From NCBI RefSeq assembly GCF_003350405.1, contig NZ_QQAW01000008.1, positions 62,001 through 126,000 of the forward strand: DNA of 64,000 nt, given 5' to 3'. Position numbers and translations under genes: made by a program. Positions 9,699 through 48,395 of the stretch are shown here, one piece after another. The notes under the pieces were generated by a model that did no database searches, had not been told where the DNA came from, and saw nothing but the letters and a program-made list of their open reading frames with translations. Position 1 is the stretch's first letter. Each line of letters opens with the position of its first letter. This DNA comes from Gluconacetobacter liquefaciens. GTDB lineage: Bacteria; Pseudomonadota; Alphaproteobacteria; Acetobacterales; Acetobacteraceae.

Positions 9699-9929
9699 TA
9701 TTTCCGGATTTTCAATAAAAACCCGGCTCCATCTCCCCCCGGCTCCTCATGCCCAGCCAACATTAAACGCAGCCATTCCCGACATATGGCACCGGGGGAT
9801 GAACAGGCAAGATGCACACTATCAGGCGCCATCCAGACCATCCCTCCGCAACCACTTGGCGATCCGCGCTTTTCATTCCGACCGGCTCCGCTTACCGTTC
9901 ACGGAGCCACAGAATGCAAGGCCGCCCTC

Positions 9930-11279
9930 ATGACCCGTTCCCAGATCAGGCTTCTCGTCGCGACCACCGCCGTCACCGCGCTGCTGGTGGCAGCCGGCTA
10001 CCGCGCGGTCGTCTCGCCCGAGGAAGCCCGGCAGACGGTCGCGGCCGGAACCGGCCCCCACCCCGTCCTGCCGCCGCCCAACCCCACCTTCATGCCCACG
10101 GTCAACATCGCCACGCCCGTCGGCTGGCAGGGCACGCAGGCCCCGACCCCGGCGGCGGGGCTGGCGGTGCATGCCTTCGCCACCGGCCTGGACCACCCCC
10201 GCTGGCTGTACAAGCTGCCCAACGGCGATATCCTGGTGGCGGAATCCGAGTCCCCCGGCACCGACATCAAGACGGTGAAGAACCGCATCGCCGGCCTGGT
10301 CATGGGCCAGGTCGGCGCGGGCGGAAAAAGCCCCGACCGCATCATCCTGCTGCGCGATACCGACGGCGACGGCATCGCCGACCAGCGCAGCGTGTTCCTC
10401 GACCACCTCTACTCGCCCTTCGGCATGGCGCTGGTCGGCGACACGCTCTACGTGGCCAACGCCAACGCGCTGGTCCGCTTCCCCTATCACGAGGGCGAAA
10501 CCCACATCGACGCACCGGGCGAGAAAGCCGTCGACCTCCCGGCCGGCTACAACCACCACTGGACCAAGAACATCCTGGCCAGCCCGGACGGCAGCACCCT
10601 CTACGTGACCGTCGGCTCCAACAGCAACGTCGCCGACAACGGCATGGAGGTCGAGGAAGGCCGCGCCCGGATCGACCGGTTCGACATCGCCACCGGCAAG
10701 CTCACCCCCTACGCCACCGGCCTGCGCAACCCCAACGGGCTGGCGTGGGAGCCCAAGACCGGCGCCCTGTGGGTCGCAGTGAACGAACGCGACGAAATCG
10801 GCAGCGACCTGGTGCCCGACTACATCACGGCGGTGAAGGAGGGCGCGTTCTACGGCTGGCCCTACAGCTATTACGGCCAGCATGTCGATGTCCGCGTCAA
10901 GCCGCAGCGGCCCGACCTGGTGGCCAGCGCCATCGCCCCCGACTACGCGCTCGGCCCGCACACCGCCTCGCTCGGCATCGCCTTCTCGCAGGACAGCAGC
11001 CTGCCCGCGGCCTGGCGCAATGGCCTGTTCGTCGCCCAGCACGGCTCATGGAACCGCAAGCCCAAGAGCGGCTACCGCGTCATCTACGTCCCCTTCACCG
11101 ACGGCCACCCCGACGGCACCCCCCGCGACGTGCTGACCGGCTTCCTCACACAGGACGAAGACCACGCCCACGGCCGCCCGGTCGGCCTGGCGCTGGACAA
11201 ATCCGGCGCCCTCCTGGTCGCCGACGATGTCGGCAACACCGTGTGGCGCGTCACCGGCACGGACCAGAAGACCGACTGA
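9930..11279 (+). CDS. Sorbosone dehydrogenase family protein (PQQ-type sugar dehydrogenase fold)
   Basis: A 449-residue exported or membrane-anchored protein of the L-sorbosone/glucose dehydrogenase beta-propeller family. An N-terminal hydrophobic helix (about 8-24) follows MTRSQIR. Family segments include [30 protein letters not shown] (a calcium-binding-like DxDGDG), [41 protein letters not shown] and GRPVGLALD. The frame is open back to an ATG at 9786, but those 48 residues lack a signal or domain features; the ATG at 9930 places the signal helix at the N-terminus. Such proteins oxidise sugars or aldoses in the periplasm of acetic acid bacteria; the actual substrate here is not shown. It is monocistronic and convergent with the next gene. 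Confidence 0.8.
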
Positions 11280-11288
11280 CGCGCCCTT

Positions 11289-12920
11289 TCAGGCCCAGTA
11301 CCACGACCGGATATTCCAGCAGTTCGACCGCACGTTGATATTGCTTTTATATCCGACCAGCGCGGATTTGACCCCTTCGATCGAACTGCGCTGGTAAAGC
11401 GGCAGAACCGGCAGGTCATGCCGGATGACGGCCTGGATCTTCCGGTAGATCTCGCGCCGCTTCATCCGGTCCTGCTCATGCATCCCCGCAACCATTAGTT
11501 CGTCGGCGACGGTGGACGCGTACTGGAAGACATTGCTGCCCACGCCCCCTCGCGCCACCGACTGGTGGCTGTCGAAATGCAGCGAGCATTCCGGATCGGA
11601 CCCGACCATGAAGTCGATCTCCACCAGCGCGCTATCGAACTGCGAATGGGTCCAGCGACTGCCCCACGTAATGGCGGGCGGCGCGTCATGCAGCGTCATG
11701 GCGGCACCGATCGTCTTCCATTGCGCCTGCATCACCTGCTGGATCTGCTGGCGCAGCGGATCGCCCGAGGTCGAGGAATTGCCGAATTCCAGCCGCACAC
11801 CATCTCGACTGCGGATTCCGTCCCGGCCCGCCACCCAGCCCGCCGCATCCAGCACCGCCCGTGCCTGCGCCGGGTCATGTCGGTGCGCCGGCAGGTCCGG
11901 ATTGAACCAGAAGGATTCGCGCGGCACGTACGATTCACTCACATGCGGCAGCCCTTCAAGCAGGATCGAAATGATCTCCTCCTTGTCGAGCGCCAGATAC
12001 AGCGCCTGCCGCACCGCCAGATCCTGAAATTGCGGCCGGCCGAGATTAAGCGCGACGACACCGGCGGCGGCGGCAGGCGCAATCTCGATGCGGCGCCCGG
12101 CCGGCAGCGCCAGGGCCTCCCGGTATCGGTCCGGCGCAATACCCTGCATTCCCAGATAATCGATCGCACCGACCTCAAACTGGGTAAAAAGTGCGGTCTG
12201 ATCGGGGATGTATTTAAAGATCAGCGTCTCGACATGCGGCTCCTCGGGCCGGTAGTAACGCGCATTGGCCAACAGTGTGATCTGGTCGCCAGGCACCCGG
12301 CTCCCCCAGCGGAACGGCCCGGTGCCCACCGGCTGCTGCGAGAATGCCGAGGCGCTCCAATTATGCTCACGTGCTAGAAGATGCGCCGGCACGACGAACA
12401 TGTTCGCAAGCTGCGACAGATACGACGCCGAGCTTTCCTTCATCCGCCAGGTGATTTCCGTCGGACTCACCACCGTCACATCCGCGACCAGTTCATGCCC
12501 GGCGCGCGAATAGGCCGGAAAATCCGGATCGTGCAGCAGTCCGAGCGTAAAGCGCACATCCTCGGCCGAAAAGGGCGCCCCGTCATGCCACGCCACATCC
12601 GCCCGCAGCCGGATCCGCCAGAAGGTTCCGTCTTCCGAAATGCCGCCATTGTCGGGCGTCGGAATATCGGCCGCAAGCTCCGGCACGAACTGGCCCGTCT
12701 CGTCAATCGACCAGAGCGGACTGAACAGATTCATAAGAAGGCCGTCATCAACCTCGATATGCGGAAACAATGGATTGAAGACGGTCGGCTCCTGTGACAG
12801 CCCGACGACGATCCCGCCGCGCCGCCCACGCGGGGCCGCCCGCGCCCGCCCCGCCAACCCCGGCAGCGCCACCGCGGCACCCAACCCGCCCACGAATGCC
12901 CTGCGGCCCAGAGGATGCAT
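11289..12920 (-). CDS. ABC transporter periplasmic substrate-binding protein (Opp/Dpp/Nik type, SBP family 5)
   Basis: A 543-residue family-5 solute-binding protein. The start at 12920 is chosen because GGAGAG lies 7 bases upstream and a Tat-type leader follows (GRRAFVGGLGAAVALPGLAG). Typical segments are FNPLFPHIEVDDGLLMNLFS, DGTFWRIRLRADVAWHDG, FSAEDVRFTLGLL, GTGPFRW and FGNSSTSGDPLRQQIQQVMQ. It is the last gene of a leftward operon that begins with a TonB receptor and contains both permeases, both ATPases and an FAD oxidoreductase; having the binding protein last is unusual. Family members bind peptides, nickel chelates, opines or aminopolycarboxylates; the cluster context suggests an amine-containing chelate rather than a plain peptide (inference). 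Confidence 0.9.
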   Translation of the reverse strand: MHPLGRRAFVGGLGAAVALPGLAGRARAAPRGRRGGIVVGLSQEPTVFNPLFPHIEVDDGLLMNLFSPLWSIDETGQFVPELAADIPTPDNGGISEDGTFWRIRLRADVAWHDGAPFSAEDVRFTLGLLHDPDFPAYSRAGHELVADVTVVSPTEITWRMKESSASYLSQLANMFVVPAHLLAREHNWSASAFSQQPVGTGPFRWGSRVPGDQITLLANARYYRPEEPHVETLIFKYIPDQTALFTQFEVGAIDYLGMQGIAPDRYREALALPAGRRIEIAPAAAAGVVALNLGRPQFQDLAVRQALYLALDKEEIISILLEGLPHVSESYVPRESFWFNPDLPAHRHDPAQARAVLDAAGWVAGRDGIRSRDGVRLEFGNSSTSGDPLRQQIQQVMQAQWKTIGAAMTLHDAPPAITWGSRWTHSQFDSALVEIDFMVGSDPECSLHFDSHQSVARGGVGSNVFQYASTVADELMVAGMHEQDRMKRREIYRKIQAVIRHDLPVLPLYQRSSIEGVKSALVGYKSNINVRSNCWNIRSWYWA

Positions 12921-12945
12921 CAACGCTCTCCGCACGGAGCCGGCC

Positions 12946-14274
12946 CTAGAACCCGACATCGATCTGAAGTTTCGAGCCATCGGTAAAGCGCGACCAGCGG
13001 AAAGGCACCGGATCAACAACCGGGTCCGCCCCCGTCGCCAGATCGGCGGCCAACTGCCCTGCACCCGGCCCGATCCCGAAACCATGGCCCGAGAACCCGG
13101 TCGCCACGATCAGCCCTTCCACACCCGGAACCGGGCTGATCGTGGGCACGGCATCGGGCATCACGTCGATCATACCGCCCCATGTCTGCACCACCTTCAT
13201 CCCCGCTGCCTTGGGAAACAGGCTCAGGAACGCTTCCTCGGCCTGTTTCAGCAATGCAGCAACCGGCTTGGGGTCCAGCGTGCGCACCTGCTCGAAGACG
13301 GTCGCCTGATCCATCGCCCAATGCCGCTTCTGCCGCAGCGCCTCGATGAAGCGATGATCCAGCCGGGGTTTGAGCGCCCGCCGTTCGGCGCGCAACGCAG
13401 GCAGAAATTTCGGCAGGAACCGGATCGTATCGGGCACGATCGGCGCCACGACGGTACCCGACTGCGCGAAATTATACCCCCCGTCATCGCGTTTGCGAAA
13501 CGCGACCTTCCCCGTATAGGCACTCACGTCCGGAAGCCCCGCGATTGGCGAAGTCCGTGCCACCGAGGCCAGTACCTTAAGCTGCGGCAAAGTCAGGTCA
13601 TGATTGCCCAGCAGCAGCCGCGACCACGCCCCACCGGCAACGACCACGGCATTGCAGGCAATACGCCCTTTTTCCGTAAACACCCCCCGCACCTGCCCGC
13701 CCGCGATATCCAGCCCCCGCACGGCGGTCGATTGCAGGATATGCGCGCCACGCGCCCGCGCTGCCGCCGCAATGGCCGGCGCAGCCTTCTGCGGCTCGGC
13801 GCGGGCATCGGTCGCGTTATACAGCGCGGAACGGAAGCTGCGCGTCGCCCCCGGCAGCAGCGCCGCGATTTCCGACGAACCGATCACGCGCGACCCGGTC
13901 TGCCAGATCCGCGCATTCTCCGCCCAGCGTTCATGCCGCGCCTGATCGGCTTCGGTCAGCGCCACCGACAGCACGCCAGTCACCTTGAAGCCGGTATCAG
14001 CCTGTTCGAGCGGCCCCAGACCATGCCAGATCCGCATGCTCTCCAGCATCAGCGGAATCTCGCGCGCATCGCGACCGTTCTTGCGCACCCACCCCCAGTT
14101 GCGGCTGGACTGCTCGGCGCCGATCACGCCTTTTTCGCACAGGGCGACGGCAATGCCCTTGCGGCTCAGCGCCAACGCCGTGCTGGCCCCGACAATCCCT
14201 CCCCCGATGACGACGACATCGGTAGAGGCCGGCAGGGTCGTATCGCTCTCGATGGTGACGACTTCAGGTCCCAT
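12946..14274 (-). CDS. FAD-dependent oxidoreductase, DAO family
   Basis: A 442-residue flavoprotein of the D-amino-acid / glycine / iminodiacetate oxidase (DAO) superfamily. The Rossmann FAD motif is near the N-terminus (DVVVIGGGIVGASTALALS, about residues 18-36). A conserved EQSSRNWGWVRKNGRD follows, and the C-terminal FAD-contact region reads VATGFSGHGFGIGPGAGQLA. It oxidises a C-N bond of an amine or amino acid, giving imine that hydrolyses to a keto acid or glyoxylate plus amine. The ATG at 14274 is preferred over a TTG at 14328. A paralogue with the same EQSSRNWGW motif is at 22086. It sits between the transporter ATPases and the binding protein in one operon, suggesting it acts on the imported compound. 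Confidence 0.85.
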   Translation of the reverse strand: MGPEVVTIESDTTLPASTDVVVIGGGIVGASTALALSRKGIAVALCEKGVIGAEQSSRNWGWVRKNGRDAREIPLMLESMRIWHGLGPLEQADTGFKVTGVLSVALTEADQARHERWAENARIWQTGSRVIGSSEIAALLPGATRSFRSALYNATDARAEPQKAAPAIAAAARARGAHILQSTAVRGLDIAGGQVRGVFTEKGRIACNAVVVAGGAWSRLLLGNHDLTLPQLKVLASVARTSPIAGLPDVSAYTGKVAFRKRDDGGYNFAQSGTVVAPIVPDTIRFLPKFLPALRAERRALKPRLDHRFIEALRQKRHWAMDQATVFEQVRTLDPKPVAALLKQAEEAFLSLFPKAAGMKVVQTWGGMIDVMPDAVPTISPVPGVEGLIVATGFSGHGFGIGPGAGQLAADLATGADPVVDPVPFRWSRFTDGSKLQIDVGF

Positions 14275-14305
14275 GTTCACTGTTCCGATTGCAGAGGGTG
14301 AGAGA

Positions 14306-15316
14306 TCAGCAGCAGGATTGCCCCGCAAGCGGCCCGTCGATCACCAGGTCGTCGCGCAGGCAGGCGGTCATGTGCCCCCCTTGCAGCGTGCGGACGGGCG
14401 GCTTTTCCACGGCACAGGCCGGCATGGCGAATGTGCAGCGCGGGCGGAAGGCACAGCCCCCCGCCATACCGGCATCCTCCGCCACCGGCTGGACCGCGAG
14501 CAGCGACGCCGCCGAACTGTCCGGGGCCGGGGCGGCGTTCAGCAGCATGGCGGTATAGGGGTGGCGCGGCCGGGTAAACATCGCCACCGTCTCGCCCAGC
14601 TCGACGATCCGCCCGCGATACATCACGGCGATCCGGTCGGAAATAATGCCGACGACGGGCAGGTCATGGGCGATGAACACGATCGCGATGCCCAACTGCT
14701 CGCGCAGGTCCATGAACAGATTCACCACCTGCGCCTGCACCGACACATCCAGCGCCGACACCGCCTCGTCCGCCACGACCAGCGCCGGATCGAGCATCAG
14801 CGCACGGGCGATATTGATCCGCTGCCGCTGCCCGCCGGAGAATTCATGCGGATACCGGTTCAGCAGCGTGGCGGGCAGGCCCACGAGGTCCAGCGCCGCC
14901 ACCAGCTTCCGCCGATCCTCGGCCGGCGTCCCGGTCAATCCGTGCAGCGCCAGCGGCGTGCGCAGAAGCTGCTCCACCGTCATGCGCGGGTTCAGCGACG
15001 CATAAGGGTCCTGGAAGATCATCTGCGCCCGCCGCCGGAATCCCCGGCGCTGCACGCGGTCCATGGTCAGCGGATCGACCCCGTCGAACAGCACCTGTCC
15101 GAACGAGCGCGTCAGGATATCCATGGCAATCCGCCCGGCCGTACTCTTGCCCGATCCGGATTCCCCGACAATCCCCAGCACCTCGCCCCTGCCGACAGTG
15201 AACGATATCCCGTCAAGCGCGACGAAAGCCTCTCCCTTGCCGAACAATCCTTTCCTGCGCGGATAGATTTTCGTCAGGTTGCGCACATCCAGCAGCGGCG
15301 CGGTCGGGTCAGCCAC
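14306..15316 (-). CDS. Opp/Dpp-type ABC transporter ATP-binding protein (DppF/OppF-like)
   Basis: A 336-residue ATPase of a peptide/chelate importer. Walker A is GESGSGKST, the signature is FSGGQRQRINIARAL and Walker B is LVVADEAVSALD. The C-terminal oligopeptide-ABC extension contains CAFRPRCTFAMPAC, a Cys-rich motif in this subfamily that can hold an Fe-S cluster. The GTG start at 15316 is chosen: it has a GGAGGAG ribosome site and overlaps the previous stop by 8 bases, a sign of translational coupling. The longer open frame upstream to 15517 reads through the preceding gene in another frame and is rejected. Confidence 0.93.
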   Translation of the reverse strand: MADPTAPLLDVRNLTKIYPRRKGLFGKGEAFVALDGISFTVGRGEVLGIVGESGSGKSTAGRIAMDILTRSFGQVLFDGVDPLTMDRVQRRGFRRRAQMIFQDPYASLNPRMTVEQLLRTPLALHGLTGTPAEDRRKLVAALDLVGLPATLLNRYPHEFSGGQRQRINIARALMLDPALVVADEAVSALDVSVQAQVVNLFMDLREQLGIAIVFIAHDLPVVGIISDRIAVMYRGRIVELGETVAMFTRPRHPYTAMLLNAAPAPDSSAASLLAVQPVAEDAGMAGGCAFRPRCTFAMPACAVEKPPVRTLQGGHMTACLRDDLVIDGPLAGQSCC

Positions 15317-16322
15317 GGGCGATCTCCTCCCAGCGCACGCAGCGCACCTCATGCCCGCTCCGCGCACTCTCCAGCGACGGGCGAAAACCGTCGCACACCC
15401 CCGGCCGGAAATGTGCGCAACGCGGATGAAAGGTGCAGCCCTGCGGCCGGTGCCTCGGGTCGGGCACATGCCCCGGAATGGTCGGCAGCCTCTGGCGCCG
15501 GGCCAGCACGGCGTCATAGGTCGGCACGGTGCGGAACAGCACGCGGCTATAGGGCATCAGCGGGCTGTCCAACGCATCGCGCACCGGCGCGTTCTCGACC
15601 ACCTGCCCGGAATACATCACCACGATCCGGTCCGCGACCTGCGCCACAACCCCGATATTATGGGTAATGAAAATGATCGCCATGCCCATTTCCGCCTGAA
15701 GCCCCCGCAGCAAGGCCAGGATCTGCGCCTGCACGGTCACGTCCAACGCGGTGGTAGGCTCGTCGGCGATCAGCAGCCGGGGCCGGCAGGCCAGCGCGAT
15801 GGCGATCATGACGCGCTGGCGCATGCCGCCGGAAAGCTGGCCGGGATAATGCGCGACGATCTGCCCCGGATCGCGCAGCCCCACCCGCGCCAGCATCTCG
15901 ATCGCCATCGCCTGCGCCTGCCGGCGGGTCAGCCCGTCATGGGTCATCAGCACTTCGGCAATCTGCTCGCCGATGGTCAGCACCGGGTTCAGGCTGGTCA
16001 TGGGGTCCTGGAAGACCATGCTGATATCGCGCCCCCGTATGGCACGCATGGCCCGGTCGGGCAGCGCCAGCAGATCGACGGCATTCTCCCCGTCCCGGCG
16101 AAACAGTGCCTGCCCCGAGACCACCGTACCCGCCCCGGCCGGCAGCAATCCCAGCAACGCCATGGCGGTGACGCTCTTGCCGGAACTGCTCTCGCCGACG
16201 ATGGCCACGGTCTCCCCCGCGCCCACATCGAAGCTCGCCCCCTCCACCGCCGGAATGTCCGGGCCGCCCCCCTGCGCGAACGTCACCGCCAGCTTGCGTA
16301 CCGAAAGAATGGGCCCGCTCAT
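15309..16322 (-). CDS. Opp/Dpp-type ABC transporter ATP-binding protein (DppD/OppD-like)
   Basis: A 337-residue ATPase, partner of the 14306 gene product. Walker [10 protein letters not shown], signature [15 protein letters not shown] and Walker [13 protein letters not shown] are all present. The C-terminal domain carries [15 protein letters not shown]. The serine pair in Walker A is a minor variant and keeps the catalytic Gly-Lys-Ser. Its start overlaps the stop of the upstream permease (ATGA, 16319-16322), so the genes are coupled. Confidence 0.94.
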
Positions 16323-17155
16323 GCCCGGCGCCCCTGCCTGGGGTCCACCGCGACGCGCAACCCGTCACCGATGAAATTCAGCCCGATCACGGCGACGGCA
16401 ATCACCAGTCCGGGCAGAATGGCCAGCCACGGGTCCGGCCGCAGATATTCCTGCGCGTCGTTCAGCATCGCCCCCAGGCTGGGCTGCGGCGGCTGGATGC
16501 CGTTGCCCAGATAGCTGACATACGCCTCCATCAGGATCGCCCGCGCCACATTCAGCGTCGAAACGACGATGATGGCACCAGTAATGTTCGGTAGCAGTTC
16601 GCGCAGCAGCATATGCGCGGCCGACGCCCCCATCGCTTCCACCGCAACGACGAACTCCCGCCCCCGCAACGCCCGCACCTGCCCGTCCACCACCCGCGAC
16701 ACCTCCATCCAGGCCACCAGCGAAACGATCCCCACGATGGTCAGCGCCCCCGGCTGCCCGAAGGAGGCCAGCGTCAGCAGCAGGAAGATGGTCGGAAAAC
16801 ACAGCACGGAATCGACAATCCGCATCAGCACCCGCCGCGTCCACCCACCATAGAACCCGGTCAGCCCGCCCGTCAGGCACCCGGTCAGGGTACTCAGCGC
16901 CATAGCCGACAGCCCGATCAGCAGCGAGGTCCTGGCCCCCACCAGCAGCCGCACCAGCGTATCCCGCCCGATCTCGTCAGTCCCCAGCACATGGCTGCCC
17001 GACAGAGGGGGCAGAAAACGATGATGCAGGTCGATCTCCAGCGGATCGAAGGGCAGCAGCAGCGGCAGCACCACGCAGGCAAAGGCCAGCACCACGACCA
17101 TGACCATCCCGGTCGAGGCGGTGCGGATCTTCATGAGGCGACGAAGCGTATTCAC
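16319..17155 (-). CDS. Opp/Dpp-type ABC transporter permease (DppC-like)
   Basis: A 278-residue inner-membrane permease with about six hydrophobic helices (first at 16-36, VMVVVLAFACVVLPLLLPF). The family HVLGTDEIGRDTLVRLLVGA follows the first helix. The ATPase-contact EAA-like loop reads VVAVEAMGASAAHMLLRELL. It pairs with the 17193 permease to form the membrane pore. Located 37 bp after that gene on the same strand. Confidence 0.93.
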   Translation of the reverse strand: MNTLRRLMKIRTASTGMVMVVVLAFACVVLPLLLPFDPLEIDLHHRFLPPLSGSHVLGTDEIGRDTLVRLLVGARTSLLIGLSAMALSTLTGCLTGGLTGFYGGWTRRVLMRIVDSVLCFPTIFLLLTLASFGQPGALTIVGIVSLVAWMEVSRVVDGQVRALRGREFVVAVEAMGASAAHMLLRELLPNITGAIIVVSTLNVARAILMEAYVSYLGNGIQPPQPSLGAMLNDAQEYLRPDPWLAILPGLVIAVAVIGLNFIGDGLRVAVDPRQGRRA

Positions 17156-17192
17156 ATCACGACCCCTTCAGAGACGTCTCGCATCATCCCCC

Positions 17193-18152
17193 TCACTGGC
17201 GCGACACGCGCAGACGGGGGTCGGCGACGGCATAGAGCGCGTCGGTCAGGATGCTGCCGAAGGTCGCCAGTACGGCGGAGAACATGAGAATCCCCATGGC
17301 CACCGGATAGTCGCGATATTCGAGCGAATCGAGAAACAGCCGGCCGATCCCCGGCCAGGTAAACACCGTCTCCGTCACCAGCGCCCCGCTCAGCAGGGTC
17401 GGAAACTGCAACCCCGCCAGCGTGATCATCGGCAGCAGCGCATTGCGCAGCACATGCCGGTAGCGAATACGCCGGGGCGACAACCCCTTGGCCCGCGCGG
17501 TGCGGATGTAATCCTGCCCCAGCACCTCCGCCACCGCATTGCGCGTATAACGCGACCATATCGCGGTAGAGCCAAGCGCCAGCACGATCGCCGGCAGAAA
17601 CAGATGCCGCAGATAATCACCCGGCGAAAAAGCCCCGCCCACCGTATGGATGTTTCCCGACGGCAGCCATCCCAACCGGACGGAAAACAGCGAAATGAAT
17701 ACAAGCCCAAACCAGAACGTCGGGATCGACAGCAGCACGACGGACAGTATCGTCATCATCGTGTCGCCTCGCGATCCCTGGCGAAAGGCACCATACACCC
17801 CCATCGACGCCCCGGCCCACGTCGCCAGCAGGCTGGCAGTGCCGGCAAGTTCCAGCGTCGCTCCCAGATGCCCGAAGATGATGGTCAGCACCGGCTGATG
17901 GTCACGGAACGAGCGCCCCCAGTCCCCGAACAGCAACCCCTTCACCCAGACAAGATATTGCACGGGCAACGGCACATCGAGCCCCATCTGGTGCCGGATC
18001 ATCCCCAACTGGGTCTCCGTCATCCCCGGCGAGAGCGCGAACTGCGCAAGCGGATCGCCGGGGGCAAGATGAAGCAGCAGAAAACCGGTGACAGAGACGA
18101 TCGCCAGGGTAACGACCATGCGGGCGAGCCGGGAGACGAACGTATCTGTCAT
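17193..18152 (-). CDS. Opp/Dpp-type ABC transporter permease (DppB-like)
   Basis: A 319-residue permease. The N-terminus has the typical leader and first helix (LARMVVTLAIVSVTGFLLLH), then LAPGDPLAQFALSPGMTE and GLDVPLPVQYLVWV, which mark the DppB/NikB/OppB family. The EAA loop reads RTARAKGLSPRRIRYRHVLR, and LLSGALVTETVFTWPGIGRL is the conserved periplasmic loop. It lies 25 bp after the TonB receptor gene, so outer- and inner-membrane importers are probably transcribed together. Confidence 0.93.
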   Translation of the reverse strand: MTDTFVSRLARMVVTLAIVSVTGFLLLHLAPGDPLAQFALSPGMTETQLGMIRHQMGLDVPLPVQYLVWVKGLLFGDWGRSFRDHQPVLTIIFGHLGATLELAGTASLLATWAGASMGVYGAFRQGSRGDTMMTILSVVLLSIPTFWFGLVFISLFSVRLGWLPSGNIHTVGGAFSPGDYLRHLFLPAIVLALGSTAIWSRYTRNAVAEVLGQDYIRTARAKGLSPRRIRYRHVLRNALLPMITLAGLQFPTLLSGALVTETVFTWPGIGRLFLDSLEYRDYPVAMGILMFSAVLATFGSILTDALYAVADPRLRVSRQ

Positions 18153-18177
18153 CGCATGACCTCGGAACCTGCCACCT

Positions 18178-20556
18178 TCAGAGTTTCAGATTGACCTGAA
18201 AATAGTAATATCCACCGTTGAAGCCGATCTGCTGGATATCATAATCATACATCGCCGTTCCGATATAGCGGAAATCCTTCGGTATTTTCCTCTGCTTTTC
18301 GTTTCCGACATTATTCGCCCCCAACGCCACCCGCCATTGCGGGTTGATCTGGTAGGCAATCATCAGGTTGGTCTGGAAACGCGGGCTGTCGACATAGCGC
18401 ATGAACTGCGTGTTCGAGTAAGCCAGCGGGCCGACATAATATTCCAGTTGCGACGTCGCGCGGCCGTAGCGGATCTCATGCGCGGTGAAATCCCATTTTC
18501 CTACATGCCAGTTGCCGCCGAAGATCAGCTTGTTCCGTGGGGTGTAGGACGTGATATAGCCCTGCGTCTGGGCGTTGATCAGGTCCTTGCCTGTACCGTC
18601 CTTGTTGATCTTGAGAATATCGGTCTGGTTGAAATTCGCCGCAAGATCCCAATCCACCGCCCCATACCGCCCCAGATCGGTGCGATAGGACGCCGTGATA
18701 TCCATGCCCCGCGTCCGCGTATTGGCGACATTGGAAAAATACTGCGCCTTCACCGCCGAAGCCACGAGGCCCGGCGGCAGGCCGAAACCGCCGGCATTCA
18801 GCGCATCGATCGCCGTCTGTCCGTTATAGACGCCACCGACCATGATCCGGTCCTTCAGGGTGATCTGGTAGGCATCGAACGTGATATGCAGGTTACGGAT
18901 CGGGTTCAGCACGAAACCGGCACTGAAACTGGTCGAGCGTTCGGGCTTCAGCGGTCGCGCGCCCAACTGGCGGGCAGCGACGGAATTCACGGGCAGGAAG
19001 CCGCTGGCACCGGTAGGCGAAACCGCCAGGCTGGACCAGTTCTCTTCCGCCAGCGTCGGCGCACGGAATCCGTTGCTGATCGTACCACGCAGGCTGAAAT
19101 ATTTGTTGAAATCGTAGCGCGAGGACACTTTCCCGGTCTTGGTGTCCCCGGCATCGGTGTAATGCTCGAACCGCCCCGCCAGATCGATCTGCCATTTCGG
19201 CAGAAGCTGCGTCGACAGGTCGATATAACCCGCCGTCACGTCGCGATTGCTGTCCGAGGCATTCTGCGGGCTCAACCCATGGTCGGCCGCAGGCCCCGCA
19301 CCATACCACGCACCGAATTCACCGGCACCGATATGGTAGCTGTCATAACGATATTGCGCGCCGATCGCGAAATTCAGCGGCGCTGCCAGCAACGGCACAT
19401 GGAAAGCGTGGCGCAGCCCCGCATCCGTCGTCCACTGGGTGTTGCTCAGCGTCATCATCTTGTTGAAGCGGGCAGGCGACGAACCGAAATCGGCGATCAG
19501 CGACGGGTTTTCGGTATTCAGCATCCCGATTGTCGCCGAATCCCCTCCATAGGTCATACTCACGTCCCAGTCCCAGTCGAACTTCGTACCGCGAAAACCC
19601 ACCGTCACGCTGTAATCATTCTCGCCAAGCGTGATCTGCGGACTGAATCCGTAAGGGTACATCGACGGCATGACGGTCGATGGCCGGTAATACTGCATGC
19701 TCTCGCCATCGCGATGCCCGAAGGTCGAGAACGAATACAGCTCTATGCCGGGCGTGATGTGATAGCCCATGTTGTAGCCGATGGTCTCGCGCATCTGGCG
19801 CGGATTGCCCAGCACGAAATTGTCCTTCACGCCCGTGCGGTTATCCACCCCGTCGCGCGCCGTATGGTCCATATATTTGAATTCGGCATTGAGATCGAAG
19901 AACCCGCGATCAGCCAGCGACGTCCCCCAGTTGATGGACTCGCCCGAGGTAAAGCCATCTCCCGCATAATACCCGCCATTGATGGCCTGCGCCTGAATCC
20001 CCCTGGTATCATGCTTGAGGATGATGTTGACGACACCTGCAATGGCATCGGATCCATATTGGGCGGCCGCGCCGTCCTGAAGAATCTCGACATGGTCGAC
20101 GGCAGAGACCGGAATCAGGTCGATATCGACCGGACTCGTACCCTGCTGTGGCCCCTGGAAGGTCGAAAGCACCGCCGTCGTATGCCGGCGCTTGCCATTG
20201 ACCAGGATCAGCGTCTGGTTCGGTGTCAGTCCGCGCAGGCTGATCGCGTCCGTCATGTTCGAATTGCCGATATTCATGTCTGAACGGGTCATCGACGGCG
20301 CAAGCTGGATCAGCGCATCGCGAATATCGCTCTGGCCGGTGGCGGCAAGCTGCTTCGCGGTCACCACCTGAATGGGGCTGACGCTGCTCCGCGCCGTCTG
20401 GTGCGGGTCGCGCGTGCCGGTCACGATCACCTGCTCGTCGGCAGCCGGCAGGTCGGCGGCATGCGCCGCCTGGGCCAACGCACGGCCTTCCGGATAAAAC
20501 TGGTTCACGCCGAGAAGAATCGTAGTTCCGAGCACGTAATGTCTTAGGCGAGGCAT
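18178..20556 (-). CDS. TonB-dependent outer-membrane receptor, first gene of ABC/oxidoreductase operon
   Basis: A 792-residue receptor without an STN domain. The start at 20556 has GGAGA 7 bases upstream and gives a signal peptide (MPRLRHYVLGTTILLGVN, then ALAQA). A TonB-box-like EQVIVTGTRDPHQTARSS precedes the plug. Plug motifs are SLRGLTPNQTLILVNGKRRH, DLIPVSAVDHVEILQDGAAA and QYGSDAIAGVVNIILK. The barrel ends YYFQVNLKL. This subfamily (RRHTTA, DGAAAQYGSDAIAGV) is distinct from the siderophore receptors elsewhere in the window. Two copies of a TTCAGTATRCC motif lie 65 and 118 bp upstream. It should carry the compound that the ABC system then moves across the inner membrane. Confidence 0.92.
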   Translation of the reverse strand: MPRLRHYVLGTTILLGVNQFYPEGRALAQAAHAADLPAADEQVIVTGTRDPHQTARSSVSPIQVVTAKQLAATGQSDIRDALIQLAPSMTRSDMNIGNSNMTDAISLRGLTPNQTLILVNGKRRHTTAVLSTFQGPQQGTSPVDIDLIPVSAVDHVEILQDGAAAQYGSDAIAGVVNIILKHDTRGIQAQAINGGYYAGDGFTSGESINWGTSLADRGFFDLNAEFKYMDHTARDGVDNRTGVKDNFVLGNPRQMRETIGYNMGYHITPGIELYSFSTFGHRDGESMQYYRPSTVMPSMYPYGFSPQITLGENDYSVTVGFRGTKFDWDWDVSMTYGGDSATIGMLNTENPSLIADFGSSPARFNKMMTLSNTQWTTDAGLRHAFHVPLLAAPLNFAIGAQYRYDSYHIGAGEFGAWYGAGPAADHGLSPQNASDSNRDVTAGYIDLSTQLLPKWQIDLAGRFEHYTDAGDTKTGKVSSRYDFNKYFSLRGTISNGFRAPTLAEENWSSLAVSPTGASGFLPVNSVAARQLGARPLKPERSTSFSAGFVLNPIRNLHITFDAYQITLKDRIMVGGVYNGQTAIDALNAGGFGLPPGLVASAVKAQYFSNVANTRTRGMDITASYRTDLGRYGAVDWDLAANFNQTDILKINKDGTGKDLINAQTQGYITSYTPRNKLIFGGNWHVGKWDFTAHEIRYGRATSQLEYYVGPLAYSNTQFMRYVDSPRFQTNLMIAYQINPQWRVALGANNVGNEKQRKIPKDFRYIGTAMYDYDIQQIGFNGGYYYFQVNLKL

Positions 20557-20620
20557 AGACGTATCTCCGATACAGGGAGGCGGCGCGGAAACGACCTGCC
20601 GTGAAAAGGGGACTGACGAG

Positions 20621-20635
20621 TTCTGTATGCCGGAT
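20621..20635. promoter_or_regulatory. Putative GntR operator copy 1
   Basis: TTCTGTATGCCGGAT, 65 bp upstream of the TonB receptor start. It matches the family TTCAGTATRCCRGAA at 13 of 15 positions. The GTATRC core resembles operators of FCD-type GntR regulators, and such a regulator gene lies in the cluster (23524). Confidence 0.5.
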
Positions 20636-20673
20636 AAAGGGAACACCCCTCAGATCCACCATCGATTTCGCTT

Positions 20674-20688
20674 TTCAGTATGCCCAGA
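20674..20688. promoter_or_regulatory. Putative GntR operator copy 2
   Basis: TTCAGTATGCCCAGA, about 118 bp upstream of the TonB receptor start and 53 bp from copy 1 (five helical turns, same face). The left half matches perfectly; the right half is degenerate. Confidence 0.5.
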
Positions 20689-20815
20689 TTAGGAAGCACA
20701 CCCCCAGCTGTCTATCTATTTTTTTATCGAAATGATCAGAAACCCTCATCTGATCGTCATGAAATTATCTATCTTCCTGAAATCCCGACAGAATCAGCCC
20801 GTCCGGAATATCAGA

Positions 20816-20830
20816 TTCAGTATGCCGGAA
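20816..20830. promoter_or_regulatory. Putative GntR operator copy 3
   Basis: TTCAGTATGCCGGAA matches the consensus fully. It lies about 260 bp upstream of the TonB receptor and 100 bp past the end of the hydroxyacid reductase gene, so it may be a distal operator for the TonB operon. Confidence 0.5.
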
Positions 20831-20930
20831 TAGCTGTCCGGGCACGCGCCGCATGAAATCCGGCGACAAAAAAATTCCGGTCAAGAAACGTTCAAGCCGC
20901 CGCGCATGCAGGCTGCGGAAAATCGGCAGA

Positions 20931-21872
20931 TCAATAACCCCGCTCAGGCCGATAGCGCAGCTTCGCCTCCTCACCCCGCAGCACGGCTCGAATCACCTCC
21001 ACGGCATGGACGGCCTTGGCGGGCCGCGATGCCTCGGCGGCAGCATGCGGCGTAATGATGATTTTCGGATGCGCCCACAAAGGGTTCTCCGGCGCCAACG
21101 GTTCGGGCGCGAACACATCCAGCACCGCTCCATCGACCTGCCCTGCATCAAGGGCTGCAATCAGGTCCGCCTCGGCCAGATGACTGCCCCGGCCCGCATT
21201 GATCACACAGGCCCCGCGCGGCAGGGCCGCAAACGTGCGGGCTCCCAGAATGCCCCGCGTCTCCGGGGTCGAGGGCAGCAGACAGACGAGGATATCGAGC
21301 CCGCCCAGAAACGGCAGAAACCCGTCCTCCCCTGCATGGCAGGCCACACCGGGCACATCATGCCGCGACCGCGCCCAGCCCGCGACCCCGAACCCGGCCC
21401 CGACCAGCCGGGTCGCCACTTCACGTCCCAGATTGCCCAGCCCCATGATGCCGACCGTCATGTCCCCGGCCAGCCGGTTGCCGGCGAACGGCAGCCATTC
21501 ATGGTTCGCCTGGGCATTCCGCCAGGTCCACGCACGCCGCAGGCAGCACAGGCTGGCCCAGAGTACATACTCCGCCATCTGCGGGCCAAGTTCCGCATCG
21601 CCCATGCGATAAAGCGGCACGTGCCGGGGCCACTCCGGGTCGCGGGTAATATGGTCGACTCCCGCCCCGCTGCTGATGATAGCTCGCAGCCCCGTCATGC
21701 GCCGCAGCACCGCCCCTTCGGGTTCCCAGGCCAGCACGAAATCGACCCGCTCGGGCGCGGCACAGGCATCCGCCCACCCCACCACCTCCAACTCCGGCAT
21801 CAGGCGGGCAAACGCCGCCTGCCAGTCCGGCAGCACCGCAGCCCCACCAGACTTGACGGCAAGACATGTCAT
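20931..21872 (-). CDS. D-2-hydroxyacid dehydrogenase, glyoxylate/hydroxypyruvate reductase A type
   Basis: A 313-residue NAD(P)H-dependent 2-hydroxyacid dehydrogenase of the GhrA subfamily. The N-terminal catalytic half contains GAGVDHI. The Rossmann motif is VGIMGLGNLGREVATRLVGA. Active-site residues are visible as Arg in NAGRGSHLAEADL, Glu in VFAPEPLAPENPLW and His in ITPHAAAEA. It reduces glyoxylate or hydroxypyruvate to the 2-hydroxyacid. The start at 21872 is preferred because a conserved operator copy (21899-21913) would otherwise lie inside the coding region; the frame is open to 21917. Divergent from the FAD oxidoreductase at 22086, whose reaction could yield glyoxylate; that link is inference. 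Confidence 0.88.
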   Translation of the reverse strand: MTCLAVKSGGAAVLPDWQAAFARLMPELEVVGWADACAAPERVDFVLAWEPEGAVLRRMTGLRAIISSGAGVDHITRDPEWPRHVPLYRMGDAELGPQMAEYVLWASLCCLRRAWTWRNAQANHEWLPFAGNRLAGDMTVGIMGLGNLGREVATRLVGAGFGVAGWARSRHDVPGVACHAGEDGFLPFLGGLDILVCLLPSTPETRGILGARTFAALPRGACVINAGRGSHLAEADLIAALDAGQVDGAVLDVFAPEPLAPENPLWAHPKIIITPHAAAEASRPAKAVHAVEVIRAVLRGEEAKLRYRPERGY

Positions 21873-21898
21873 GAGAGCCCCCGCGTCATCTTTCACCG

Positions 21899-21913
21899 AT
21901 ACGGTATACTGAA
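21899..21913. promoter_or_regulatory. Putative GntR operator copy 4
   Basis: ATACGGTATACTGAA; on the reverse strand TTCAGTATACCGTAT. It lies 27 bp before the chosen start of the reductase gene, where it could cover the promoter. It contains the GGTATAC core. Confidence 0.5.
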
Positions 21914-22026
21914 ACACAGACAGGCGTCGAGTCCATTCCGGAAGCGAATCCTTGAATCTACCTTTTCTTTTATATCACTGAGAAAGATTCCATACCGGAT
22001 TTGCAAAACCCGCATCGCCCCCCCTT

Positions 22027-22041
22027 TTCAGTATACCAGAA
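22027..22041. promoter_or_regulatory. Putative GntR operator copy 5
   Basis: TTCAGTATACCAGAA, an imperfect palindrome (TTC.G.....C.GAA), 45 bp before the FAD oxidoreductase start at 22086. It is the most symmetric copy. Copies 4 and 5 flank the divergent promoter region. Confidence 0.55.
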
Positions 22042-22085
22042 TGCGGTCTAAACAGGTCGGACAACGGCAACCGGTCCCACATGAC

Positions 22086-23366
22086 ATGACATCGCCCCAG
22101 ACTACCGGCCAGCATTACGATGTCGCCATCGCCGGCGCGGGCATCATCGGCCTGGCCACTGCCCTTTTCCTGCGCGAACAGGGCCTGTCGGTCGTGGTCT
22201 TCGACAAGGGCGCGGCTGCATACGAGCAATCCAGCCGCAACTGGGGCTGGATGCGCACCATCAGCCAGGACATGGCGGAACTCTCCCTGGCCCTCGAAAG
22301 CCGCCCCCTCTGGCGCCAATGGGCACAGGAAGCCGATTTCGGCTTCCGGCCATGCGGCCTGCTGTCCCTGGCCACCGATGGCGGGGAGTGGTCCGGCCTG
22401 CGCTCGTGGCTGGACCACGCGGCCGGTCGTGGCCTCGATGCAAGAATCGCACAGTCTGAAGAAGTCGCGCGCCTTCTGCCGCAATTCCGCCGCCCCTGGG
22501 CCGGTGCCGTGTTCGCGCCCGGCGATGCTGGCATCGAGCCAGACCAGGCCATGCATTTTCTCGAACGAAAGGCCCGTGCTGCCGGCGTCGCGATCGTCAC
22601 CGGCAACGCCGTCAAGCGCATCGACATCAGCGGCGGCAGGGCAGTCGGCGTGCAGACCGAAACCGGCTTCGTGGCGGCGGAAAAAATCGTGATCGCGGCC
22701 GGCATCTGGTCCCGCTGGCTGTGCGCCACGCTGGGGATCGTGCTTCCGCAATTGCGGGTCACGGCTTCGGTCCTGCGCACCACGCCCGTCGAAGGCGGCC
22801 CCGAGGTCAACGTTGCCTCAAGCCGCTACTGCCTTCGCCGCCGCAGCGACGGCGGCTACACGGTCGCCCGCCGCAACTCCTCCCTCACCCACGTCACGCC
22901 GGACTCGCTGCGCTTCATGCGCCAGTATCTGCCCAACTACCTCAGGCAGAAACAACTCCTGCGTGTCCGCATGGGGATGAATTTCTTTCACGAATGGCGG
23001 CAGGAACGGCGCTTCGGCCCCGGCCGTCCCAATCCGTTCGAGGATTTCCGCACCTGCGACCCGACACCGGACATCGACACGCTGAAGGAAACATTCGACC
23101 ACCTCAAGGAAGATGCTCCCATCTTCCGTTCCGCGCGGATCGCGGGCACCTGGGCCGGTACCATCGACGTCCTGCCCGACGCCCTGCCGGTTCTCTCTTC
23201 CGTCGCGCGCTATCCCGGCCTGTTCCTGGCCACCGGTTTCTCGGCGCACGGGTTCGGCATCGGCCCGGCTTCCGGCCGCCTGATGGCGAATATCATCACC
23301 GGCACGGCCTCGGCCACCGCCGCCGCCCCGTTCCGGTTGGACCGTTTCCACCTCAATGGCGACTGA
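22086..23366 (+). CDS. FAD-dependent oxidoreductase, DAO family (paralogue of 12946 gene)
   Basis: A 426-residue flavoprotein. The N-terminal dinucleotide motif is DVAIAGAGIIGLATALFLRE. The block EQSSRNWGWMRTISQDMAEL is shared with the other DAO protein in the cluster (EQSSRNWGWVRKNGRD), and the C-terminal FATGFSAHGFGIGPASGRLM-like region is also common (here LATGFSAHGFGIGPASGRLM). The two proteins are thus paralogues but clearly diverged. Expected to oxidise a primary or secondary amine or amino acid. An open frame extends upstream to 20853, but this overlaps the reductase gene and operators and is rejected. Followed after 157 bp by the cluster regulator. Confidence 0.87.
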   Translation: MTSPQTTGQHYDVAIAGAGIIGLATALFLREQGLSVVVFDKGAAAYEQSSRNWGWMRTISQDMAELSLALESRPLWRQWAQEADFGFRPCGLLSLATDGGEWSGLRSWLDHAAGRGLDARIAQSEEVARLLPQFRRPWAGAVFAPGDAGIEPDQAMHFLERKARAAGVAIVTGNAVKRIDISGGRAVGVQTETGFVAAEKIVIAAGIWSRWLCATLGIVLPQLRVTASVLRTTPVEGGPEVNVASSRYCLRRRSDGGYTVARRNSSLTHVTPDSLRFMRQYLPNYLRQKQLLRVRMGMNFFHEWRQERRFGPGRPNPFEDFRTCDPTPDIDTLKETFDHLKEDAPIFRSARIAGTWAGTIDVLPDALPVLSSVARYPGLFLATGFSAHGFGIGPASGRLMANIITGTASATAAAPFRLDRFHLNGD

Positions 23367-23523
23367 AAGGCTGTCCGCCGACAGCCTCCGAAGCCGCACG
23401 CTCCTGCCCACGGCGCTTTGTTGTTCCCACCGCGCGTCTGTGGCAAAGCCGAAAGGGCGACGGACGGGGGAGACGCAACGCATGACAAGGGCCGAACGGT
23501 GCGCAGAGCCGGCGGAGAACGGC

Positions 23524-24198
23524 ATGAACCGCCATTATACGGGCGAGGAACTCTATCTCATCCTCCGGCAGGACCTGATCAATGACCGCACCCCCGGCGG
23601 CACGGTCCTGCAGGAAAACGAGATCGCCACCCGGTACGGCGTCAGCCGCACCCCGGTGCGCGAGGCGCTGCAAAGGCTGCACCAGGACAATCTGATCGGC
23701 CGCAAGGGCCGCTTCTACACGGTCGCCCAGCCACCGCTGGAACGCATCCGCGAACTCTATGAGTTTCGTGAGGCGATCGAAGCCAGCACCATCGTCCTGT
23801 GCTGCCGCCGGGCCGGCGACGAGGTCCTGCGACAGATCCACGACATCGTGGAGCAGCAGCAGCAGGCCGCCGACCAGCGCCGCTACTACGATTACGAACG
23901 TCTCGATGCCCTGTTCCACGTCGCCATTGCCAACGGCGCGGAAAACCGTCTCCTGGCACACCAGCTCGAAGTCAGCTACGACCAGATCTGGTTTTCCAGG
24001 GTCGGCAACCTGGTCTCGCTCCAGACATATTCGGTCGACGGCACGATCGCCGAACACCGCCGCATCGTCGACGCCCTGATCCGCAGGAAGGAAGACGTCG
24101 CAAAGGCCGAAATGATCAGCCACCTGCGTGCGGCCATCGATATCAGCGAACGCTCCGTGAGCAGCCGCGCGAAGCGCCCGAAGAAAACGCCGGCCTGA
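23524..24198 (+). CDS. GntR-family transcriptional regulator, FCD type
   Basis: A 224-residue regulator. The winged helix-turn-helix occupies about 5-70 (LYLILRQDLINDRTPGGTVL, then ENEIATRYGVSRTPVREALQ). The helical effector domain (about 80-205) contains YEFREAIEASTIVLCCRRA, LDALFHVAIANGAENRLL and the late His in GTIAEHRRIVDALIRRKEDV, consistent with the FCD fold that often binds a metal plus a carboxylic acid. The ATG at 23524 has GGAG 6 bases upstream; longer starts at 23482 and 23356 lack this. Likely controls the transport and oxidoreductase genes next to it through the repeated TTCAGTATRCC sites (inference). Confidence 0.88.
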   Translation: MNRHYTGEELYLILRQDLINDRTPGGTVLQENEIATRYGVSRTPVREALQRLHQDNLIGRKGRFYTVAQPPLERIRELYEFREAIEASTIVLCCRRAGDEVLRQIHDIVEQQQQAADQRRYYDYERLDALFHVAIANGAENRLLAHQLEVSYDQIWFSRVGNLVSLQTYSVDGTIAEHRRIVDALIRRKEDVAKAEMISHLRAAIDISERSVSSRAKRPKKTPA

Positions 24199-48075: not shown

Positions 48076-48395
48076 ATCGCCTGATGTCCATCGAACGGCA
48101 ACCGCCGTCCGCAAGGCCGAACCACCGGGCCAACACCCCGCGCACCAGCCCCACCGCCGGACCGGTCCCCCTCCGGCGCACGCTCGAAAAACCTGACTGC
48201 CACCTGCCGGCCCCATGGTCCACCGCAGACGTGCCCGGCACCCGGTTTATGACATATTCATGATAGCCGAAAAAAATCTTGAAATGAAAATCCGCTCACG
48301 TCAAACGTGTGACGCAACACCATTTCGTTAATTTCTCCTGCGCGCGGCCACCCCTGGCCCGCCCCGCCATCCTTGCTCACAGGACGACCCGGACC
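48076..48395. promoter_or_regulatory. Divergent promoter region between LacI and TonB/PhoD genes
   Basis: No gene seen in this 320-bp region. It contains an A-rich segment around 48265-48295 and an inverted repeat CGTCA-N6-TGACG (48299-48314), and an ATGACATATTCAT stretch near 48249 with ATGA/TCAT symmetry that could be a LacI-family operator. Functional roles are guesses. Confidence 0.4.

Follow-up and report, generated by a model that had tools for sequence, protein, structure and literature searches.

A GntR-linked TonB receptor, Dpp-type importer and flavoprotein cluster in Gluconacetobacter liquefaciens with a possible role in opine or Amadori compound catabolism

We analyzed a stretch of 64,000 nucleotides from Gluconacetobacter liquefaciens (contig NZ_QQAW01000008.1, hereafter the window, numbered from its first letter) and studied the region 11289-24198, in which ten genes encode a TonB-dependent receptor, a DppBCDF-type importer with its binding protein, two flavoproteins that we call DAO1 and DAO2, a GhrA-type enzyme and a GntR-family regulator. 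The host genome is 4.17 Mb in size, and the nearest named relative at the cluster is Gluconacetobacter tumulicola LMG 27725, whose binding protein is 90% identical.

Gene content and candidate operators

The ten genes of the cluster are the following:

11289..12920, minus strand: solute-binding protein SBP_bac_5 with an N-terminal twin-arginine (RR) motif (PF00496)
12946..14274, minus strand: DAO1, FAD-dependent amine oxidase/deaminase of the L-amino acid deaminase (LAAD) clade with a 55-residue insertion called INS (PF01266; best PDB match LAAD 5fjm; studied by model, tree and pocket residues)
14306..15312, minus strand: DppF-type ATPase, start uncertain (about 15312) (PF00005 and PF08352; NF008453 at 334 bits, under the cut-off of 408)
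15309..16322, minus strand: DppD/OppD-type ATPase (PF00005 and PF08352)
16319..17155, minus strand: DppC-type permease (PF00528 and PF12911)
17193..18152, minus strand: DppB-type permease (PF00528 and PF19300)
18178..20556, minus strand: TonB-dependent receptor of module 1, with no STN domain reported (PF07715 and PF00593)
20931..21872, minus strand: GhrA-type D-2-hydroxyacid dehydrogenase (PF02826; NF012013 GhrA at 214 bits, under the cut-off of 403; GhrA-type PDB matches)
22086..23366, plus strand: DAO2, second LAAD-clade flavoprotein, with the carboxylate-binding Arg of LAAD (PF01266; best PDB match LAAD)
23524..24198, plus strand: GntR-family regulator of the FCD subfamily (PF00392 and PF07729)

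Seven of these genes form a leftward operon in the order TonB receptor, DppB, DppC, DppD, DppF, DAO1 and binding protein, with intergenic gaps of -4 to +37 bp. The GhrA-type gene also points leftward, and DAO2 and the GntR gene point rightward. The open reading frames (ORFs) and the Pfam domains of the ten proteins (SBP_bac_5, two DAO, two ABC_tran with oligo_HPY, two BPD_transp_1, TonB plug and barrel, 2-Hacid_dh_C, and GntR with FCD) agree with the layout described in an earlier note on this DNA. Among the NCBIfam matches listed, none was above the cut-off for any of the ten proteins, and DppB, GhrA and the like are consequently used as family-level names only. Near its N-terminus the TonB receptor carries the sequence EQVIVTGTR, which we take to be TonB-box-like.

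A repeated motif that fits the palindrome TTCNGTATACNGAA flanks two promoter regions, that of the TonB operon and the divergent GhrA/DAO2 promoter. The form TTCNGTATRCCRKA has five perfect matches in the 4.17-Mb genome, four of which are at the cluster (window 20621, 20816, 21900 and 22027), within about 1.4 kb. The operator-like sites are:

20621..20634, plus strand: TTCTGTATGCCGGA, in the TonB promoter (motif match)
20674..20687, plus strand: TTCAGTATGCCCAG, a degenerate fifth copy (motif; counterpart in G. tumulicola)
20816..20829, plus strand: TTCAGTATGCCGGA (motif match)
21900..21913, minus strand: TTCAGTATACCGTA, on the GhrA side of the divergent promoter (motif match)
22027..22040, plus strand: TTCAGTATACCAGA, on the DAO2 side of the divergent promoter (motif match)

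The sole perfect copy outside the cluster is located on contig C2 of the same genome (532794-532807). At up to one mismatch the genome contains 24 matches, compared with 14 for a reversed-pattern control, and therefore only the perfect matches are informative. Our rough estimate for the chance of such clustering, about 1e-9, makes it look more striking than it is, because the motif, treated as fixed beforehand, was derived from the same sites. The ATG starts at 20556 (TonB) and 21872 (GhrA) put the sites upstream of the genes; longer ORF alternatives would place two of them (20621 and 21900) inside reading frames.

Conservation in relatives is independent support for the operator motif. G. tumulicola has sites with 0-2 mismatches at matching positions upstream of the same genes, and in Acetobacter musti sites are found upstream of TonB (one perfect). 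The same tolerance of 0-2 mismatches reveals sites upstream of DAO2 and of a further receptor gene, TonB', in the congener G008, and, in Kozakia, A. musti and the genome G043, sites between the TonB' and DAO2 genes. The GntR gene co-occurs with DAO2 and sites of this family (0-2 mismatches) in all five of these relatives (G. tumulicola, G008, Kozakia, A. musti and G043). The loci that have an IclR-type regulator upstream (L040, L143, L159 and L168) showed neither a perfect site nor one with a single mismatch. The predicted operators are thus nearly confined to the cluster and kept in relatives, which supports the co-regulation proposed in the earlier note. Its further claim that one motif is common to all the genes holds in part: the repeated motif is real and conserved, but the GntR gene, which comes after DAO2, lacks a site of its own.

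Relatives of the flavoproteins and of the binding protein

When DAO1 and DAO2 were compared with the PDB by phmmer, the top match of both was Proteus LAAD (212 and 192 bits, respectively), with other amine oxidases far lower. A model of DAO1 (pLDDT 93.3) superposed on LAAD 5fjm with a TM score of 0.93 at 31% identity, and its TM score with a flavin-containing opine dehydrogenase was 0.70-0.71. In Proteus vulgaris LAAD, the INS region binds the membrane and is required for activity (PMC5651824). An insertion of exactly 55 residues corresponds to INS (Val321-Met375) in both DAO1 and DAO2. In a tree of 51 DAO rows, DAO1, DAO2, the Ti-plasmid flavoproteins and LAAD fell into one clade of 39 rows with support 95/99. 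INS is present in all 39, with 55 residues in 36 of them (including DAO1, DAO2, the Ti proteins and LAAD) and 56-58 in three, and the remaining 12 rows have at most 19 residues at that position. The inner order of the clade is weaker: a group of 15 rows containing the Ti proteins, DAO2 and LAAD without DAO1 has support 82/96, the placement of LAAD is weak (91/85), LAAD was flagged for its composition, and some long branches join one another. DAO3, a flavoprotein of other acetic acid bacteria, was rejected as a DAO2 orthologue: it lacks INS, falls outside the clade and occurs together with DAO2 in G008.

The substrate pocket of LAAD includes Tyr97, Gln99 and Arg315, the last of which holds the substrate carboxylate (PMC5651824). 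According to the sequence alignment from which the pocket residues were taken (the fold was modelled for DAO1), Tyr97 and Gln99 are both replaced by Trp in the two DAOs, and Arg315 is kept in DAO2 and replaced by Ser in DAO1. Because of this difference at Arg315, DAO1 and DAO2 are unlikely to have the same substrate. They share with Proteus LAAD (5fjm and 5hxw) the fold, as modelled for DAO1, and the 55-residue INS, and differ from it in these pocket residues and at the N-terminus: the segments before the FAD motif are short in both DAOs and contain no LAAD-like Tat/membrane anchor.

A tblastn search of plasmids with DAO1 found relatives in 516 records, all below 60% identity, and DAO2 has relatives of 72-73% on Kozakia and Gluconobacter plasmids. 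The Ti-plasmid flavoprotein is 49% identical to DAO1 and 40% to DAO2, which supports, by sequence likeness, the opine-like substrate class suggested earlier, since this protein is encoded beside the AgaA importer. Its gene, which we take to be agaE (Lyi, Jafri and Winans 1999), is divergent from the genes of an importer. The mature part of the binding protein of this importer matches PDB 6hlx along its whole length (1097 bits). The title of 6hlx describes a complex of AgaA with agropinic acid, and the binding protein of a second Ti importer is that of 6tfq. Relative to the Ti flavoproteins, each DAO matches six of eight pocket positions, DAO2 with the Arg and DAO1 with Ser at the Arg position. 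The cluster thus has in common with the agropinic acid region of Ti plasmids (NC_002377 and NZ_CP066275) an SBP_bac_5 importer linked to an INS-bearing flavoprotein; the Ti region differs in having a hydantoinase pair and other regulators, with no TonB receptor in the stretch read.

The RR motif of the binding protein is invariant in 35 of 35 aligned relatives. The matches of this protein in the PDB included AppA (150 bits), NikZ (149 bits) and NikA (113 bits), with CntA further down, and also EppA (6wm6, 61 bits). We looked for the two DppA residues that are changed in PDB 8z1z, Arg383 and Asp436, in an alignment at about 23% identity. The Arg383 column is Thr in all 35 family members, and the Asp436 column contains Ser (12), Pro (12), Ala (9) or Asn (2) and no Asp. 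Ordinary DppA-type dipeptide import was rejected on the absence of both anchor residues at this level of alignment. Nickel import was likewise rejected, as the column of NikA His416 holds Lys (24), Gln (6), Arg (4) or Thr (1) and no His.

Distribution of the cassette and origin of the arrangement

A scan of contigs with a profile of the binding protein gave at least 544 relatives. From these we took the 80 best loci, which are not a random sample, and labelled them over up to 10 kb per side, some flanks being cut by contig ends. Genes were counted when they scored above 90 bits against reference proteins; neighbour labels are best BLAST matches to a small reference set, and the unlabelled ORFs are mostly unidentified. 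The 80 loci contained the binding protein (80), DppB (78), a DAO1-like flavoprotein (71), DppC (65), a DAO3- or rz-type flavoprotein (64), SDR (46), MarR (40), a GhrA-type gene (16, G. tumulicola included) and a TonB receptor (5); the numbers for GhrA and DAO refer to the surrounding 10 kb, genes outside the operon included, and have no random baseline. The tie between Opp-type importers and DAO-type flavoproteins that had been put forward is borne out by the DAO1-like gene within 10 kb in 71 of 80 loci. The suggested tie of the GhrA-type enzyme to the pathway is upheld only to the extent that 16 of the 80 loci have such a gene at most 10 kb from the importer, against no random baseline.

The importer with DAO1 is a widespread alphaproteobacterial cassette. 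Binding-protein relatives of 46-54% identity adjoin the same importer in alphaproteobacteria, and outside the two closest species the DAO1-like proteins are 37-60% identical. Compared with this SBP-DppBC(DF)-DAO1-DAO3/rz-SDR-MarR cassette (SBP, solute-binding protein), the window cluster lacks the SDR, MarR and DAO3 genes and has a TonB receptor, for which no counterpart was found in the flanks read of the cassette outside acetic acid bacteria. A widespread rhizobial and rhodobacterial form, DppDF-MarR-SDR-DAO1-SBP-DppB-DppC-DAO(rz), was seen in L079, L080, L081, L083, L126 and other loci; we found no paper on this operon, though no search was aimed at it alone. Two loci titled Mycobacterium sp. 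KBS0706 (L132) and Bacillus subtilis SK6B4 (L176) contain the cassette in Inquilinus-like and Limoniibacter-like arrangements and look mislabelled or contaminated.

All five TonB-bearing loci among the 80 are from acetic acid bacteria (G. tumulicola, A. musti and three Gluconobacter), and beyond these a TonB receptor also adjoins the cassette in the source genome and in G008 (L040). Receptor relatives of 66-95% identity head the same operon in acetic acid bacteria. As a check, we built a profile from five varied TonB receptors and ran it against all ORFs of at least 350 amino acids in these 80 loci. A very divergent receptor could escape such a profile; matches occurred in the same five loci only, with two in L159. 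In those of the 80 loci that come from bacteria other than acetic acid bacteria, the flanks read showed no TonB receptor near the importer, and because of this the compound is probably small enough to pass porins in those hosts. DAO1 of at least 60% identity occurs in three of 14 same-genus genomes (the own genome, G007 and G008), so that the cluster is patchy; some relative at E <= 1e-60 is found in nine of the 14.

The other genes of the window cluster belong to a second module. On plasmids of Kozakia baliensis and Gluconobacter thailandicus, the gene groups GhrA-MFS-TonB' and DAO2-Fe-ADH-GntR point away from each other, and the stretch read contains no ABC importer. G043 shares this divergent arrangement except that Fe-ADH is missing, and G008 has the same module genes, again without Fe-ADH, all on one strand. 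In A. musti this module adjoins TonB-DppBCDF-DAO1-SBP, with a monooxygenase of the NtaA/DmoA family between them (L218:4041-5360, minus strand). The module resembles the window cluster in DAO2 (72-81%), GntR (81-88%) and GhrA (61-71%), and in the operator-family sites of Kozakia and A. musti; the window differs in having no MFS, TonB' or Fe-ADH gene and in having the module-1 TonB receptor and the ABC importer. GhrA, DAO2 and GntR of the window come from this second module. The arrangement in the window and in G. tumulicola looks like a composite, a condensed fusion that would have arisen by loss of the monooxygenase, MFS, TonB' and Fe-ADH rather than by stepwise gain.

Two other regions of the window were also recorded. 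At 48309-50840 (plus strand) lies a further TonB-dependent receptor, 34% identical to TonB' of the Kozakia module. At 7044-11279 (plus strand), convergent with the cluster, a TonB-dependent receptor with a long N-terminal extension (FecA-like, with no STN match) is followed by a glucose/sorbosone dehydrogenase-type protein that could in principle oxidise an osone. These two genes were excluded as cluster members, having no operator site and lying on the opposite strand.

Proposed function and competing explanations

The operon is most simply read as a system for uptake through the TonB receptor and the importer, followed by oxidative C-N cleavage. We tentatively propose that the cluster serves the TonB-assisted uptake and oxidative cleavage, under GntR control, of an opine- or Amadori-class amine, most likely a sugar-amino acid conjugate, perhaps like those of plant galls or heated sugar. 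The TonB receptor would take the compound across the outer membrane, and the Tat-type binding protein with the DppBCDF importer would bring it into the cytoplasm. DAO1 and DAO2, paralogues with different pockets, would oxidise the amine and break its C-N bonds. By analogy with Proteus LAAD, they would probably do so at the membrane and feed the respiratory chain. The GhrA-type enzyme may then reduce the resulting 2-oxo acid, and GntR may sense the substrate or a product and repress both promoters. An opine is suggested because both DAOs share the INS-bearing clade with the Ti flavoprotein and LAAD, and because the gene of the Ti flavoprotein is divergent from an importer with an AgaA-matching binding protein. 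The proposal as a whole further draws on the frequency of DAO1-like and GhrA-type genes near the binding-protein gene, on an operator that is conserved and nearly confined to the cluster, and on a binding protein without the two dipeptide-anchor residues of DppA.

Several observations weigh against this proposal. The nearest solved relatives of the binding protein bind oligopeptides (AppA) or nickel (NikZ/NikA), and its identity to AgaA and to the 6tfq-type Ti protein is 20% and 23%, so these are not orthologous. In DAO1 the carboxylate-binding Arg of LAAD and the Ti proteins is replaced by Ser, and the hydantoinase pair adjoining the Ti flavoprotein is missing from the ten genes of the cluster. 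Relatives of the TonB receptor adjoin unlike catabolic genes, and the receptor consequently does not fix the substrate class: a 55% paralogue in the own genome (L104, C1:696000-715999) has as neighbours two DAOs and an MFS transporter, together with an NtaA/DmoA-family monooxygenase and a flavin monooxygenase-like protein, and a 72% relative (L099, G050:C5:70000-89999) is found next to a peptide-type importer other than that of the cluster, along with DAO genes, an M20 peptidase and a dehydrogenase of the isocitrate/isopropylmalate type.

The cluster might instead serve the use of amino acids or N-substituted amino acids, the importer taking small peptides or derivatives, the DAOs acting as L-amino acid deaminases and GhrA turning the 2-oxo acid into a D-2-hydroxy acid. 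True L-amino acid deaminases are the closest solved relatives of both DAOs, DAO2 retains the carboxylate Arg, GhrA fits 2-oxo acids and AppA is an oligopeptide binder. We nevertheless regard this as rather unlikely, as the ten genes include no peptidase, the DppA anchor residues are absent, DAO1 has lost the Arg, both DAOs have Trp for Tyr97 and Gln99, and neither has the N-terminal anchor of LAAD. Import of a metal-opine or metal-chelator complex, with the ligand dismantled inside the cell by the flavoproteins, would agree with the common role of TonB receptors in carrying metal complexes and with the NikZ/NikA-type proteins (and, further down, CntA) that follow AppA among the binding-protein matches. 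CntO of Pseudomonas aeruginosa is moreover a TonB receptor for an opine metallophore (PMC5719457). This explanation appears improbable: NikA His416 is not conserved, the ten genes (the rest of the genome was not searched) include no metallophore synthesis genes of the CntL/CntM type, the operators track the GntR regulator, and importer relatives outside acetic acid bacteria have no TonB receptor in the flanks read.

As an alternative to an opine-like compound, the earlier note had named an N-carboxymethyl compound and pointed to the ethylenediaminetetraacetate (EDTA) locus of strain BNC1. In Chelativorans BNC1, EDTA enters the cell through EppABCD, and IdaA acts on iminodiacetate with release of glyoxylate (PMC7312458). 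The likeness extends to gene classes only, an Opp importer with a DAO flavoprotein, and this pathway was rejected because its binding protein and flavoprotein are both too distant. The DAO1 model gave a TM score of 0.67-0.68 with IdaA at 19% identity, far from the values obtained with LAAD; IdaA scores 29 bits with DAO2 and is not among the DAO1 matches listed; and EppA reaches 61 bits with the binding protein as against 150 for AppA. The monooxygenase between the A. musti modules has 3sdo ('Nitrilotriacetate monooxygenase') as its best solved match (345 bits), which would suit breakdown of aminopolycarboxylates (iminodiacetate, nitrilotriacetate or EDTA). It is, however, nearer to YtnJ/MoxC (330 bits) than to the EDTA monooxygenase 5dqp (224 bits), and the ten cluster genes include none of the EmoA/NtaA type. 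Aminopolycarboxylate degradation as in BNC1 (PMC7312458) is thus very improbable here. We give still less credence to a biosynthetic role, in which the flavoproteins and GhrA would make alpha-keto or alpha-hydroxy acid siderophores that are recovered through the TonB receptor. Relatedness to LAAD and the siderophore role proposed for Proteus keto acids speak for it, but that role is itself disputed (PMC5651824), the cluster regulator is of the GntR type and the operon also encodes a complete, dedicated importer, which speaks for catabolism.

Returning to the catabolism of an opine or Amadori compound, acetic acid bacteria could have evolved a dedicated outer-membrane route for such conjugates, serving catabolism and not metal gain, by adding a TonB receptor to a widespread rhizobial-type importer-flavoprotein cassette and joining this with a second TonB module, all controlled by a single GntR regulator; we consider this scenario doubtful. 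Among the openly licensed PMC papers listed by our searches, none connects a TonB receptor with the catabolism of opines or Amadori compounds. The view that a dedicated TonB receptor for such a pathway is undescribed has to be narrowed, because CntO already serves an opine metallophore (PMC5719457), and novelty would be confined to a receptor that serves the catabolism of an opine.

Should the proposed substrate class prove right, opine and Amadori catabolism would extend past plant-gall bacteria into sugar-rich niches, and TonB receptors would gain a new kind of cargo. The cluster also offers a clue to the function of an importer for whose binding protein at least 544 relatives were counted, and with one regulator, two promoters and clear candidate operators it is a simple system for testing.

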